Of a stretch of 8,446 nucleotides of DNA, positions 1,202 through 7,329 are shown in pieces (the stretch's first letter is position 1; every line of letters begins with the position of its first letter). The notes under the pieces are model-generated. The model did no database searches. It saw nothing but the letters and a program-made list of their open reading frames with translations, and was not told the origin of the DNA. Source of the stretch: Clostridia bacterium (GTDB lineage Bacteria > Bacillota_A > Clostridia > Christensenellales > Aristaeellaceae); NCBI GenBank assembly GCA_017530275.1, contig JAFXMP010000075.1, forward strand, positions 1 to 8,446. The letters run 5' to 3'. Position numbers and translations under genes: made by a program.

Positions 1202-4200
1202 TTAATTAACCATTACTTCATAATCATCAAGATACCAATAGCCAGTTTTGTTTTTAAACACATGCTTCGCGTATACAATATCATTCTTTTGTACAGGTTC
1301 ATATTCATAATCCCGCGCACGAAGCGTCATGCGGGATGATTTTCCAGAACCAATCGAACGGGTGAACAAAGCATACCCCCAAACGCCGCTCCCATCTTTG
1401 CTTCGCATGGGACGCATATCCGTGATGAGCAATTTCCGGCGATCTTCTTCTTTATTGGTCGTTAGATCAACATAGCCAAGGTTTTCCATTTGCCAACTGC
1501 ATTTCGTGCGGAAATCATAATCAGCGATATGCAGAGAGCGGGTAAACAACTCACAGGCCACCAAAAGCCCATGAATATCATGAATCACCCATGATTTTCT
1601 GATATGGTTATCTTTACCAATATCTGTTCCATAGTCCTGGATCATATTTTTGATTGGCAGGTTTTCAATTTTGTCTTTCGCAACCTGTTTCGCGTTTCCT
1701 TGTTTTAGGAAATCAAAATAATCCTTGACTATACTCAGATAATTAGCGTTTCCATAATCCGCAAAGAAATCCAGTTTAATTAAAATATCAAGCTGGCGTG
1801 CGTCTATGGATGTTTTTGCTAAATCCATCAGAACATCGACAAAGTATTCGCGCTTTGCGTTATGGGACACCGTATACACTTCTTCAGCCATTTGGGTGTT
1901 CATATACTTGATAGATGCAATGCCTTTATAGATTACATTTTGCTCTGTATCAATCGTATAGGTTGACCGGGAATAGCCATAGCGCGGCGGAAGGAGCTTA
2001 ATATTCCGCTTTTGCGCATATTCGACGATACGGCCTGTTTTCTCTTGATTTTCCGCAAACACATTCAGTGCAGACGCGATAAACTGCAAGGGATAATAAG
2101 TGCGCAGATAGCCGCAAATATAACCGATACAGGAATATGCGTCTGAATGATTCCATGAAAAAGCATAAGAAGAAGCGTCCATAATTGTTTGAATGAACGG
2201 TTTAATAACTTCTTTCGCTTGTTCAATAGAAATATTATAGTGTTTAGGCGCGTATTTAATAAACTCTTTTTCGATTTCCGGCAGCAGTTTATCCGTGCCT
2301 TTTTTCTTGGCAATGGCACGGCGCACCGTATCGGACTCAGCCTGCGAATAACCGCAGAACTGAACCAACCATTTCATGATTGTTTCCTGCATACAGACAT
2401 GGCCTGCTTCCTGAGCAAGAAAATCATTCAATTCAGGTAAACCATTATCATATGTATTTCCTTCCGCCACATCATCACGGTAAGACGCGCAGGCAGGACG
2501 CAAAAGCCCATTGCCAAATGACATCCATTTGATCATGGAGAAATTTGGATTTCTTGCCTTTGCTTTTTTTATGACCTCATCCGACATAAAACGGCGAAGG
2601 AAGTTAGCCGCCTGCCCGGATTCCCATTGGAAAATGCAGGTGGTATCATTTCTGATTTCTTCCCAGGCTTTTTGGTCGCTCAAATCCACATTGTCAGGGG
2701 TAAGACGCTCAATGCCTGCCATTTCACACGTTTGGTTAATCAAGGCAACATTATCCAAGCCAAGCAAATCCCACTTAACAAAGTTGATTGCATCAAGCTC
2801 GGACATATAAAGACAGGAAATAGGATATTTACTTTCTTTGGTGGTGCATAATCCAACCTCCGCAGCCAAATCATGATCCGAAATCAACACACCGCAGGGA
2901 TGGGAACCGATGGATACGATAGTGCCTGTGACAATATCCACATACTCAAATAGCTCCTTATTCTTTTCGCGGATACGTTCATCCACATTACCATCTTTAT
3001 CCACCGCGTCGCACAAAGCCCGTACTTCCATTTCTGAATAATGGATGGAACCACGGCCTTCATTATAATTTGTGTTAAAAGCCCTCGCAATATCACGAAT
3101 CGAACCCTTTGTGGCAATCGTGTTGAAAGTAATAATTTCTGCTGTTTGAATATTTGGGAGATTCAAATGATCATCCAACATAAAGGATTTTACTTTGTCA
3201 CGATCTTCCGCGCCATAATCTGTATCAATGTCAGCCAGACTTACGCGAGAAGGATTGAGGAAACGGAAAAAGTTCAAATCAAACCGCATAGAGTCCATTT
3301 CTGTGATATGCAGCAAATAAGCGATCATGCTGCCGGAAACGCTGCCACGCCCTGGGCCTGAAAAAATGCCGTGGTCACGCTCCCAGGAAGTGAGATAGTT
3401 TTTCAGCAACATGTAGGGGGTAGCCCCCACCTTATCATAGACAGCCAATTCTTCTTCAATACGCGCAAACAGCTTTTCCCGGCCATGGCGCTTGAGCGCG
3501 TAAGGATGGGCTTCTGCCGCAGCGTAGACCGTCTGACGAAACGCTTCAGATGGATTTTCATAGATATTTGGGTATTTATTGCTCAAATCAATTTCAAACG
3601 GCTGTACCATATCAGCCATTACATTGGTATTCGCAATCGCTTCAAGCCAGACTTCTTCCGGCAGAGAATCTTGACGCTTATAGGCTTCGCACAATTCCTC
3701 GTAGGATTTAAATGTTAAATCCCAGCGTTCTTCTCCGCTGAAACGAACATTTTTACTGACCTGAAGCATAGAACGGCCTTTTACATGGCGAGAGTTCAGA
3801 GCATGGGTGTCTGTACCGGCGATCAAAGGAATACCATATTGCTTAGACAGCTTATACAGCGATTGATTATGCTCGACCTGCGTAAAATCCTGATGATGCT
3901 GAACTTCCAGGAAACAGCGATGCTTATTGCGAAGGATGAACTGAAAAAAACGCTCACGATCTTCCGCTGCTGCGCGGGGAGACATTGCACCGCCAACACA
4001 GGCGGAAGTGATGAGAATATTATCTGAAGTGGATTCCAATTCACTCATGTACACTCTCGGCGCATAATAGAAATGATTGTCATTTCGATTAAACGCCTGC
4101 GAGGAAAGACGGTTCAGTTCAAGAAAACCATCATAATTTCTGGCAATCGCAATACAATGGTAGTTATCACGGACTTTATCTTCCTCATGCATCGTGACGT

Positions 4201-4420
4201 AAAGCTCAATAGCATGGATATACTTCATGCCCGCTTCTTCGATGGCTTTCTTTTTGAAATACCATTCAAAGATATTGCCGTGTTCCGAAAAGCCCATGGC
4301 TTTCATTCCATATTGCTTTGCCAATTCAATATAGGAAGGGAACTTTGTGACACTATCCACATTGGTAACGCCATTGCTTAAATCAGAATGGAGATGATAA
4401 ACAACATAGTTTTCACTCAC
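1202..4420 (-). CDS. dnaE: DnaE-type DNA polymerase III alpha subunit (family C) with PHP domain
   Basis: This 1072-residue protein is a complete family C replicative DNA polymerase. The N-terminal PHP domain (about 1-210) shows the metal ligands of active PHP phosphoesterases: H9/H11, H47 (SEHGN), E72, H88, C141, H175/H176, D204 and H206. The palm holds GPGRGS (355-360), the acidic motif ADIDTD (396-401) and KWDLLGL with D551, matching the three catalytic Asp of E. coli alpha. Further family signatures are TFNTIATKGSIRD (431-443), GSHPCGVLI (505-513), MQETIMK (677-683) and a FSWNHSDAYS block near 754-763. An HhH-like region (about 830-890) and an OB-like fold (about 975-1072) end it. It is slightly shorter than E. 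coli DnaE (1160). The GTG start overlaps the helicase stop as GTGA, and a full GGAGGTGA lies ten bases upstream. I see no separate epsilon-type exonuclease here, so the PHP domain may proofread; that is inference. Confidence 0.95.
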   Translation of the reverse strand: MSENYVVYHLHSDLSNGVTNVDSVTKFPSYIELAKQYGMKAMGFSEHGNIFEWYFKKKAIEEAGMKYIHAIELYVTMHEEDKVRDNYHCIAIARNYDGFLELNRLSSQAFNRNDNHFYYAPRVYMSELESTSDNILITSACVGGAMSPRAAAEDRERFFQFILRNKHRCFLEVQHHQDFTQVEHNQSLYKLSKQYGIPLIAGTDTHALNSRHVKGRSMLQVSKNVRFSGEERWDLTFKSYEELCEAYKRQDSLPEEVWLEAIANTNVMADMVQPFEIDLSNKYPNIYENPSEAFRQTVYAAAEAHPYALKRHGREKLFARIEEELAVYDKVGATPYMLLKNYLTSWERDHGIFSGPGRGSVSGSMIAYLLHITEMDSMRFDLNFFRFLNPSRVSLADIDTDYGAEDRDKVKSFMLDDHLNLPNIQTAEIITFNTIATKGSIRDIARAFNTNYNEGRGSIHYSEMEVRALCDAVDKDGNVDERIREKNKELFEYVDIVTGTIVSIGSHPCGVLISDHDLAAEVGLCTTKESKYPISCLYMSELDAINFVKWDLLGLDNVALINQTCEMAGIERLTPDNVDLSDQKAWEEIRNDTTCIFQWESGQAANFLRRFMSDEVIKKAKARNPNFSMIKWMSFGNGLLRPACASYRDDVAEGNTYDNGLPELNDFLAQEAGHVCMQETIMKWLVQFCGYSQAESDTVRRAIAKKKGTDKLLPEIEKEFIKYAPKHYNISIEQAKEVIKPFIQTIMDASSYAFSWNHSDAYSCIGYICGYLRTYYPLQFIASALNVFAENQEKTGRIVEYAQKRNIKLLPPRYGYSRSTYTIDTEQNVIYKGIASIKYMNTQMAEEVYTVSHNAKREYFVDVLMDLAKTSIDARQLDILIKLDFFADYGNANYLSIVKDYFDFLKQGNAKQVAKDKIENLPIKNMIQDYGTDIGKDNHIRKSWVIHDIHGLLVACELFTRSLHIADYDFRTKCSWQMENLGYVDLTTNKEEDRRKLLITDMRPMRSKDGSGVWGYALFTRSIGSGKSSRMTLRARDYEYEPVQKNDIVYAKHVFKNKTGYWYLDDYEVMVN

Positions 4421-7329
4421 GCTTTATTCTTCACCTCCCCAAATACTTCTTTGGTATCATCTTCATGAGGATAAGGCAGCGCGTCTTTATATTTATTTTT
4501 ATCCCAAGAATATTGAATATCGTATTCTTCTGGATTGGTATAAAAACGGCGGGAAGCCTTATCATAAAACAAACCAATCGACAGGTTTTCTCTACCGCGC
4601 AGACGATCTTTCAAAACGTCCAACAGCACATCATACTGAATCGGCTCCTTATAGTAACCCGTGCCATTCTTCTTTTTGATTCCTTCTTTATCCTGGGGTG
4701 TGACGCGATAGAGGGAAAACGTTCGATGGGCGAGATCGACGATTGACCCAAGACCGGCTACATCAAACTTGGTAAGCCTACGCATGGTTTCAATCTTTTT
4801 GGGATGAATGACCAGTATGACAACTACGTTATACTTCTGAGCAAAGTCAATTAGATAATTAATAAAGTCCACTTGCTTTTCCCATTTGCTATCATCACTG
4901 GCATGGAGATTAATTGCCGTTAGGTTATCTATGATAAAAAGGCGACTGCCAAACTTTCTGGCGCTGTCCTCCATAGATTGCTCTATATCCTCAATCGTGT
5001 TAGGCCAGCCATCCTTGTAAATATATAAACGGCCTTTATAAAAGGCATCTATTCTCTGCTTTGCTTCATTTTTTACTTTATAATATACAGCACCGCGTTC
5101 TGAAACAAAAGCATTTACGTTCCTTGCCCCCGCAAGGATATAATTGATCCAGTTTTTTGCCATGTAGTTAGGCAGCTCTTTTGAATACATCCAAGCGTCG
5201 CGGCCTTGCTCCAAACACTGGCAAACAAGCTGGGAAAGAAATGAGCTTTTACCACTGTTTCCAGTGATATTGATGCGCCCGTTTCTTCGCAAAACAAGCA
5301 TACCGCTTGGCACAGTAAAACAATACTTATATCCATCCTTTGCTTTTACTAAAGGAATATTTATTTTTTCTTTTGTATTTACAAGCGACGGGTGTATAGA
5401 AGTAGTTTTTGAAACTGTGTATTCAATAGATTTATAAGCGTATCTTTCATTACTGTGGCGTTTTCCTATACGATTATTGGAAGAAACAACAGAACGAAAA
5501 CCGCAAGCGGAAAAAACAAACTGAACAAAATCGGCATTTTCTTTTTCGCAAGTAGAAAATGAAGACCGTTTTTCAGAAATATGTCCATCCCAATGCAGAA
5601 TTTCATCTGATATGATCGCCAATTGCTGTTTAGAACACTGATACCAGTCTGCACCAAACACTTTTGTTCTGATTGGAGCATCAAATATGAATGTTTCAAA
5701 CGCCAAGTCATTTTGATTGTAATGGTGTACCGTATACGCAACACCGGCCTTTTCAAGAAGTGTACGCAACCGCAATTGTTTTTGACGTTTTTTAATGTTG
5801 ATTCTGCATCTGTTGTTATCTCTTGGAAAATGACCATCACAGATTACAGCGCACATTAATCGAATTTCGTCATCAGTTAAGCCAATACCGTTTCCAGAGT
5901 AGTTAAACGTAGTAATAAATTTACCGGAAAAGCCATGTGCCGTATTTTCATGCACGGCAATCCATTCTTGAACATTTTTCTTTTGCAGATGACCTTTACT
6001 GGTTAGGTAAACAAGATTATGTTCTGGCGAAACGCATTGTTCCACTCCATAATCTGAATGAAGATGATAAAACCAATCCGCTGGATATTTATGATACACT
6101 TCAGGGATGACCAGTTTTGCCGTACCATCATGGTTATACTGAAGCACTTTTTCTCCTGATGAATAATCAGAAATCTTTTTCCATTGTTCACCATTAAAAT
6201 ATTCAGTATCACAATCAACACAGCCATTCACACCCGTCAGGATATTGAACGTTCCATAAAACAAACGAAGCATTTCAACGTCAAATTGTTTGATTCCTGT
6301 ATAGATACCATCAATTTCATCCAGGTCAATATCTTTTATATCTGCAAAATCTATAACAGATTCGACGGGTGAATCCTTTGCGTGAACCAGAATATCCAAT
6401 ACCTTTTCTTTCCCATAATAGTACAATACTTCGTTCAAATCTTTTACAGCTACCGTAGAACCGTCCAGCTTTGTAAAAGTTTCAGGAACATCAGCAATTT
6501 TCGTGCGCCAGGAACCCAAACGATAAGATACATCCTTTATCATTTGTCGCCCAGGCTCATCATTATCACCGCAAAGAATGATTGTGGAAAACTGCTGAAG
6601 CCAATCCCAATTATGCTGAATCCATTGTGTGTTTTTCGCGCCAAGCGGAACAGAAACAGCGTTTGTCCATCCTGCCTCAATAGCAGACAGACAATCAATT
6701 TCCCCTTCACAAATCATGAGGGGGGAGTCCGTGTTGACACGGTTCATATTAAACAAGAGCGGCGCTGTATCCGCGTTCTTTTGGCACCACATCTTGTTTT
6801 CACCATGCTCTACTTTACGGGCAGGACGATATTTGACCATTGTTAATACATCGTTTGTATCAAAAAAGCGAAAAACGATATTTCCATGTTCATCCTGACG
6901 AATACCGGCATAATCAACAGTGGCAGGAGAGATTTTTCGTTTCTTTAAGTATTCATAAACCTTTGATTTATCATCATCCTCCTCGTCATGCGGATAACGG
7001 TATTCCTGCTGTGTTTTTACCCCAAGCTGACCAAACGCATATTTGATTTTTGCGTGTTCAAACAATTTTTGAACAGCGCCTATGTATGTGAAGCCGGATT
7101 TTACATAAGCGTCAATCAGATCAGCGTTTATACCGCATCCGAAGCAATGGAATGAATAGGTTTTTGGGTTATAGATAAACGACGGAGTATCCTCGGCATG
7201 AAATGGGCATAAACCCCGCTGTTTATCTGCATCATATTGTTCTATGTGCAGCAATTCGGCAATCAATTCTGCATTCTTATCACCGATTTTCTCTTTTGCT
7301 TTGGAAATCAGGTTGTGATCAATAAGCAT
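4417..7329 (-). CDS. primase-helicase (zinc finger, TOPRIM, DnaB/Twinkle-like) interrupted by an intein
   Basis: The 970-residue precursor should splice to 648 residues. A CHC2-type zinc finger opens it (CPFH and FHCFGC; C41, H44, C62, C65), followed by a TOPRIM primase core with EGEID (208-212) and DNDEPG (255-260). A RecA/DnaB-type helicase domain follows. Its Walker A appears only after joining GVNG (366-369) to SGKSS (692-696), giving GVNGSGKSS. Walker B is LFIIDN (797-802), a HPKK motif lies near 842, and KDRLRGR (907-913) holds arginine-finger-type residues. The order matches T7 gp4 and Twinkle, which unwind and prime at the fork. I place the start at ATG 7329, not at the upstream in-frame ATG (7443): GGAGG and AAGGTG lie just before it, and the extra 38 residues would lie entirely over the nuclease gene and precede the zinc finger. 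One base separates it from the nuclease stop. Confidence 0.93.
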   Translation of the reverse strand: MLIDHNLISKAKEKIGDKNAELIAELLHIEQYDADKQRGLCPFHAEDTPSFIYNPKTYSFHCFGCGINADLIDAYVKSGFTYIGAVQKLFEHAKIKYAFGQLGVKTQQEYRYPHDEEDDDKSKVYEYLKKRKISPATVDYAGIRQDEHGNIVFRFFDTNDVLTMVKYRPARKVEHGENKMWCQKNADTAPLLFNMNRVNTDSPLMICEGEIDCLSAIEAGWTNAVSVPLGAKNTQWIQHNWDWLQQFSTIILCGDNDEPGRQMIKDVSYRLGSWRTKIADVPETFTKLDGSTVAVKDLNEVLYYYGKEKVLDILVHAKDSPVESVIDFADIKDIDLDEIDGIYTGIKQFDVEMLRLFYGTFNILTGVNGCVDCDTEYFNGEQWKKISDYSSGEKVLQYNHDGTAKLVIPEVYHKYPADWFYHLHSDYGVEQCVSPEHNLVYLTSKGHLQKKNVQEWIAVHENTAHGFSGKFITTFNYSGNGIGLTDDEIRLMCAVICDGHFPRDNNRCRINIKKRQKQLRLRTLLEKAGVAYTVHHYNQNDLAFETFIFDAPIRTKVFGADWYQCSKQQLAIISDEILHWDGHISEKRSSFSTCEKENADFVQFVFSACGFRSVVSSNNRIGKRHSNERYAYKSIEYTVSKTTSIHPSLVNTKEKINIPLVKAKDGYKYCFTVPSGMLVLRRNGRINITGNSGKSSFLSQLVCQCLEQGRDAWMYSKELPNYMAKNWINYILAGARNVNAFVSERGAVYYKVKNEAKQRIDAFYKGRLYIYKDGWPNTIEDIEQSMEDSARKFGSRLFIIDNLTAINLHASDDSKWEKQVDFINYLIDFAQKYNVVVILVIHPKKIETMRRLTKFDVAGLGSIVDLAHRTFSLYRVTPQDKEGIKKKNGTGYYKEPIQYDVLLDVLKDRLRGRENLSIGLFYDKASRRFYTNPEEYDIQYSWDKNKYKDALPYPHEDDTKEVFGEVKNKA
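4431..4438 (-). promoter_or_regulatory. near-perfect Shine-Dalgarno of the polymerase gene
   Basis: The minus strand reads GGAGGTGA, the full complement of the 16S rRNA 3' end, ten bases before the GTG start at 4420-4418. It lies inside the last codons of the helicase gene, whose TGA overlaps the GTG. The strong site decides the GTG start and suggests independent plus coupled initiation. Confidence 0.8.
5257..6222 (-). mobile_element. intein in the Walker A loop of the primase-helicase
   Basis: A 322-residue in-frame insertion splits GVNG from SGKSS. It begins with Cys1 (CVDCDTEYFNG, block A) and has a block B-like SPEH, with His68 and Ser where Thr is usual. Its C-terminal block reads YCFTVPSGMLVLRRNG, and it ends ITGN, with Ser as the +1 extein residue. 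Cys1, terminal Asn322 and Ser+1 are the nucleophiles of a class 1 intein, so splicing is expected. Unusual points are Gly321 in place of the penultimate His and Cys301 at the usual Asp position of block F. Because the P-loop exists only after splicing, the precursor should be helicase-dead. The exact ends follow from restoring a GxxGxGKS motif and are well fixed. Confidence 0.95.
5404..5883 (-). mobile_element. LAGLIDADG (DOD) homing endonuclease domain inside the intein
   Basis: Intein residues about 114-273 contain two LAGLIDADG-like helices. The first is IRLMCAVICDGHF with acidic Asp129; the second is ISDEILHWDGHI with Asp212. Basic stretches (KKRQKQLRLR) and an aromatic-rich linker lie between. 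Both catalytic-position aspartates are present and the reading frame is intact, so the enzyme may still cut the intein-free allele of the same helicase gene and drive homing. Activity is inferred only from these residues. Confidence 0.82.

Follow-up and report, generated by a model that had tools for sequence, protein, structure and literature searches.

A probable mobile class 1 intein in the Walker A loop of a phage-type primase-helicase, with relatives at the same step of other ATPases

Inteins that interrupt the Walker A loop of ATPases include MCM-a, VMA-b, the mycobacteriophage TerL1-a and the mycobacterial DnaB-b, several of them with endonucleases. According to the excerpts of the papers cited here and below by PMC number, MCM-a, VMA-b and TerL1-a insert after the Walker A lysine, with TerL1-b one residue from TerL1-a (PMC10643990, PMC5050341). 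Here we describe an intein in the gene for a phage-type primase-helicase on an 8,446-nucleotide stretch of Clostridia bacterium DNA (contig JAFXMP010000075.1, assembly GCA_017530275.1; hereafter the window). It breaks the loop three residues earlier than those three inteins, at GxxG/[STC]GK (a slash in a motif marks the insertion point), and ends in Gly-Asn, not His-Asn. The Pseudomonas phage KIL1 group (KU130126) carries a member of this intein family in the P-loop of its primase/helicase, at GSASG/TGKST, but the two inteins are only 35.6% identical and the exteins are distant. In literature titles and the starts of abstracts, with subscription journals mostly outside the coverage, no mention was found of a phage primase-helicase interrupted by an intein at this step of Walker A, and in none did phage and intein occur together with Enterocloster, whose phages are considered below.

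The insert is a real intein at Walker A. As the original prediction stated, it runs from Cys1 to Asn322 between GVNG and SGKSS, and the ATP-binding loop, present in the precursor as the halves GVNG and SGKS, becomes continuous only once the exteins are joined. We consider it very probable that the element is a mobile class 1 intein with a LAGLIDADG homing endonuclease. The evidence consists of exact junctions, catalytic residues, intact endonuclease motifs, intein-free alleles, a sporadic distribution and the use of the same step in other ATPases. The gene and the intein are laid out as follows.

4417..7329, minus strand: primase-helicase precursor gene, 970 residues, with Pfam Zn_ribbon_DnaG and Toprim_2 above cut-off
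7327-7329, minus strand: its ATG start, which stands behind GGGAGGAAGG; a TTG-started open reading frame reaches 7443
6223..7329, minus strand: N-extein, 369 residues, with zinc ribbon, Toprim primase, linker and the start of the RecA-type helicase up to GVNG
6223..6234, minus strand: first half of Walker A, GVNG
5257..6222, minus strand: intein, 322 residues, Cys1 to Asn322
5908..6222, minus strand: N-terminal splicing domain, intein residues 1-105, with block B Ser65 and His68; from conservation, boundary approximate
5413..5895, minus strand: LAGLIDADG homing endonuclease domain, intein residues about 110-270; boundary approximate
5836-5838 and 5587-5589, minus strand: endonuclease acidic residues Asp129 and Asp212
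5257..5370, minus strand: C-terminal splicing domain, intein residues 285-322, with Thr320, Gly321 and Asn322; from conservation, boundary approximate
5320-5322, minus strand: block F Cys301
4417..5256, minus strand: C-extein, 279 residues plus stop, starting SGKSS; remainder of the helicase domain
5245..5256, minus strand: second half of Walker A, SGKS, whose first residue is the +1 residue (Ser codon AGT, 5254-5256)

The host protein combines a zinc ribbon and Toprim primase (PF01807, 49.8 bits; PF13155, 38.5 bits; both above cut-off) with a C-terminal RecA-type hexameric helicase domain, as in the T7 gp4/Twinkle type, and the fold of the helicase domain in the C-extein matched DnaB, Twinkle and T7 gp4. 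Relatives were taken from the best 120 of 2,259 and the best 120 of 1,299 proteins, and viral loci from the best 80 of 175. Among the relatives the N-terminal nucleophile was Cys in 152/152, the block B residue corresponding to His68 was His in 157/157, and the position three residues earlier (Ser65 in the window) was Ser or Thr in 153/157. The intein ends in Asn322 and is followed by Ser at +1; class 1 inteins end in Asn, Gln or Asp and have Ser, Thr or Cys at +1. Position F:4 was Cys in 152/152 and G:5 was Thr in 149/152 (Cys301 and Thr320 in the window), whilst the residue two past the block B His, Leu70 in the window, was Leu, Val, Ile, Met or Phe in 155/157. Both LAGLIDADG motifs end in an acidic residue (LMCAVICDG with Asp129, EILHWDG with Asp212). 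The best fold match of the window intein to a known intein was TliVMA, which is a VMA-b intein (PMC8966425).

Alignment of homologues identified alleles that join at GVNG-SGKS, as had been predicted of intein-free relatives. Protein P0002 (649 residues; longest contig 149,904 bases) has no insert, shares 620/648 residues with the joined exteins and has GVNGSGKSS unbroken. The IMG/VR loci L002 and L003 likewise encode an insert-free primase-helicase with neighbors matching those of the window (in L003, polymerase 87%, nuclease 67% and Band 7 protein 93% identical). In the aligned counts the +1 residue of the 104 intein-bearing primase-helicases was Ser (100) or Cys (4), and that of the 120 insert-free ones (24 proteins, 96 loci) was Ser in 73, Ala in 41, Gly in 5 and Glu in 1. 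Thus 47/120 insert-free genes, such as L038 and P0049, have a +1 residue unable to act as a splicing nucleophile, and close intein-bearing relatives of such genes have Ser or Cys there, as in P0017 compared with L038. No enrichment of Ala at +1 beside intein gains was shown (4/17 hand-picked pairs vs 41/120 insert-free genes). The two Ser codons directly after the window site are AGY where both L002 and L003 have TCN, and +1 changes together with the intein, Ser vs Cys, between P0051 and P0108 (exteins 621/632); we interpret both observations as indicating that the intein takes a short flank along when it moves. L002 and L003 used the same Ser codon class at 24/24 shared Ser codons.

We then examined how intein presence is spread over an extein tree of 155 of 224 sequences (69 shorter than 500 residues or near copies were dropped; short search, non-random sampling). 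Presence changed 33 times by parsimony, at least 26 of these changes being forced by starred branches, compared with 51 when the presence labels were shuffled on the same tree. Intein turnover at the Walker A site is, judging from these comparisons, fast. Over pairs of the 89 bearing genes intein and extein identity were weakly correlated (Spearman 0.35), and the nearest partner was the same for both parts in 36/89. P0027 and P0046 have inteins 99% identical in exteins 80% identical, whilst seven pairs with exteins at least 95% identical hold clearly different inteins (P0007 and P0076, P0008 and P0092, P0019 and P0114, P0040 and P0106, P0051 and P0108, P0057 and P0067, P0069 and P0077). For P0019 and P0114 (exteins 628/632, inteins 95/149 aligned residues) it was ruled out that mini-inteins are fresh deletions of the full intein. 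The 16 bearing pairs with exteins at least 92% identical had inteins at least 70% identical in 5 cases and below 65% in 11, several of these 11 sharing a member. As the protein database was clustered at 90%, pairs alike in both parts were merged and swaps are over-represented; only the existence of swaps therefore counts, the ratio of swapped to unswapped pairs was left unused, and a single swap case could reflect a chimeric assembly.

Related inteins occupy the same step in other ATPases. The P-loop step GxxG/[STC]GK, or one close to it, holds 171 of the 197 inteins in the family set, which does not include the L004 mini-intein. Assigned by a script rule, the hosts of these 171 were primase-helicases (105), DnaB-like (51) and RecD-like proteins (7) and eight single cases: KIL1 primase/helicase, CB473P1 DnaB, PhoH, TerL, an AAA_28 protein, a Pif1-like helicase annotated as PhoH-like and two proteins without firm family. 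In an intein tree of 147 of the 197 (50 below 280 residues or near copies were dropped; short search, 39/144 branches starred) the Toprim-site inteins formed one group, as did the DnaB-like ones (support 86) if CB473P1 DnaB is set apart, and the RecD inteins needed at least three changes. These sites suggest that the family specialises on P-loops, as a mobile parasite adapted to the Walker A loop. Sites elsewhere were RtcB GVDIG/CGM (L102, L106 and L107), which is P-loop-like at the DNA level, two ribonucleotide reductase sites (P0121, P0123) and a nicotinamide phosphoribosyltransferase in L111, identified via related records.

Six phages of Enterocloster bolteae (loci L099, L100, L112 and L114-L122; GenBank OP172753-OP172757 and OQ326496) differ in which helicase is occupied. 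In CB473P1, CB473P3 and CB457P1 the intein interrupts DnaB and RecD2 is empty; in CB457P2, CB473P2 and PMBT24 it interrupts RecD2 and DnaB is empty. The name DnaB rests on the PMBT24 annotation and Pfam scores below cut-off. Exactly one of the two genes was occupied in 6/6 records, never both; the records represent about four independent phage lineages, a pattern expected 1 in 16 times by coin flips, and the either-or occupancy is therefore suggestive only. The exteins of CB473P1 DnaB and CB457P2 RecD2 had no significant BLAST similarity (best E 0.17), whilst their inteins were identical at 248/322 residues. Mycobacteriophage RecB and TerL1-d inteins, 48.0% identical, have been described as one phage lineage in different genes (PMC5050341); the Enterocloster inteins are closer and interrupt the P-loop of either gene at an identical step. 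At the DNA level the DnaB-site and RecD2-site inteins were 82-86% identical, a lower value than for the backbone genes; the two lineages of intein thus predate the split of the phages that carry them.

Occupied Enterocloster sites read GGT/TCTGGTAAAACA and GGT/TGTGGTAAAACA, and empty ones GGA/GGTGGAAAAACA, GGA/GGGGGCAAAACA and GGG/CGCGGCAAAAGT; the empty sites encode Gly or Arg at +1, residues that should be incompatible with splicing. Between CB473P3 and CB457P2 the RecD2 DNA agreed at 349/350 positions from -400 to -50, at 39/50 and 44/50 flanking the site, and then at 50/50, 98/100 and 187/200. The patch of differences was wider or less clear in other pairs, such as DnaB of CB473P1 and CB457P2 (198/200, 97/100, 40/50 and 44/50 up to the site; 43/50, 46/50, 88/100 and 190/200 beyond it). 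Such site-centred differences are compatible with donor flanks converted along with the intein, with alleles recoded to resist cutting, or with both. It is possible, though doubtful, that one intein lineage parasitises the step between Walker A positions 4 and 5 as such, hopping between unrelated ATPases by an endonuclease that reads P-loop DNA, and that a carrier phage must keep its other P-loop genes uncuttable. If so, the empty alleles would be recoded at the site and have +1 residues unfit for splicing, DnaB and RecD2 would alternate as intein hosts across the six Enterocloster phages like the ends of a see-saw, and in near-identical primase-helicases the site would be a revolving door at which one intein is exchanged for another.

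Several observations weigh against reading the window insert as a mobile class 1 intein. The penultimate residue is Gly321, not the usual His; yet Gly stands there in 147/152 relatives, and several inteins without this His still splice (PMC7664689). Pfam LAGLIDADG_3 (PF14528) scored 17.0 bits, under its cut-off of 22.5, and phmmer against PDB sequences gave six weak matches with no solved intein among them. The DNA of P0002, the closest intein-free relative, was not found, the Ser-codon sign of a travelling flank was spotted post hoc, and no clear local dip in DNA identity was seen (22/30 for L002 and 21/30 for L003 over the first 30 bases past the site, vs 79% overall). Class 3 inteins such as mycobacteriophage Bethlehem DnaB and MsmDnaBi1 share the block F Cys and G:5 Thr of the window family, which raised the idea that Cys301, not Cys1, is the first nucleophile. 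They lack an N-terminal nucleophile and have a block B Trp (Trp67 after His65 in MchDnaB1; PMC7664689); the window family has an invariant Cys1 and, in 155/157, a residue other than Trp at that position, and F:4 Cys is known in class 1 inteins too (PMC4031507). We rejected this mechanism on Cys1 and block B and regard it as highly implausible. An in-frame intron or assembly artefact has nothing in its favor except the insertion itself; against the open frame, the intein blocks, the fold, an Rfam scan without a match in the window and the same arrangement in 104 primase-helicase sequences from other sources (a count that includes the window's own), its probability is practically negligible. A decaying intein that still splices, with a dead endonuclease and passage by inheritance only, is unlikely, its odds overlapping those of the mobile intein since the splicing half is common to both. 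Loss of the endonuclease is evidently tolerated because mini-inteins largely without that domain make up 12/171 of those at the P-loop site, but the window copy retains both acidic residues and intact motifs around them, and its nearest relatives on the extein tree are without an intein, which favors a recent gain.

The remaining question is regulation. The original prediction proposed that splicing could gate the onset of replication or respond to redox state through Cys1 and other cysteines. In such a switch, slow or redox-sensitive splicing would withhold the helicase ATPase until conditions suit and so time phage replication. The active-site loop is indeed interrupted in the precursor, which by analogy would lack helicase ATPase, as a P-loop intein in Pyrococcus horikoshii RadA disrupts ATPase activity; oxidation inhibits Mycobacterium smegmatis DnaBi1 through its catalytic cysteine, which pairs with a non-conserved cysteine (both PMC6195587). 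Cys1 and Cys301 were the only invariant ones among the ten window intein cysteines in 91 relatives, and a redox effect through either is possible. The other eight vary, three of them mildly (C124 kept in 79, C139 in 69 and C196 in 72, all in the endonuclease part; C4 in 31, C63 in 28, C128 in 45, C225 in 6 and C240 in 21), which speaks against redox sensing through them. The gating proposal fared no better, given that the near-identical P0002 does without the intein, that presence flips many times on the extein tree and that near-identical genes hold different inteins. The regulatory or redox reading of the window intein is thus unsupported, and we judge a conditional splicing switch very unlikely.

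For the mobile class 1 intein we propose the following course of events. After translation Cys1 would start splicing, the P-loop Ser at +1 would take over the N-extein and Asn322 would cyclise, the joined GVNGSGKS loop restoring the helicase. The endonuclease would cut the intein-free P-loop DNA of co-infecting phages, and repair would copy the intein plus a short stretch of flanking DNA, the +1 codon included. In mature enzymes Walker A position 5 is Ser, Ala, Gly, Cys or Thr; in our reading this exact step is used because a variable position can accommodate the nucleophile on which the intein depends.

The same protein family has further insertion sites. A second family intein follows the Toprim metal motif EG[EMN] in 18 proteins (P0003, P0007, P0010, P0024, P0040 and 13 others; EGE in 15/18), of which 16 also have the P-loop intein. 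The +1 residue at this site was Cys in 18/18 occupied genes vs 5/206 genes without a Toprim intein. In P0050 the CHC2 zinc ribbon is interrupted by some 300 residues that start with CFAKETRV (residues about 54-360), an apparent third intein site. Two further features of the window are:

6700..6708, minus strand: Toprim EGE codons, uninterrupted in the window; the site of the second intein in the 18 related proteins
1202..4420, minus strand: DNA polymerase III alpha gene, whose GTG start overlaps the primase-helicase stop

The stop and start overlap in GTGA at 4417-4420, which suggests that the two genes are translationally coupled. A Band 7/SPFH protein (65-1189; PF01145, 49.1 bits), the one matched in L003, adjoins the replication genes. 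Phage records held no DNA near-identical to the window, and a first viral scan with a single protein as query found no relative. As 13/18 loci on bacterial genome contigs were titled Clostridia, Clostridiales, Clostridiaceae or Oscillospiraceae, the host of the window is likely to be among gut Clostridia.

On these comparisons the intein is best seen as a low-cost parasite rather than a switch. The window copy is an ordinary type of element in a good new place. Its family makes it testable why inteins occupy active sites, since one Walker A step is used in many unrelated ATPases and relatives may have no intein, a full-length one, a mini-intein or an exchanged one. Together with the sequenced Enterocloster phages, in which the occupied helicase differs, this makes it possible to test directly how the target is read, whether flanking codons are converted and whether synonymous recoding confers resistance.
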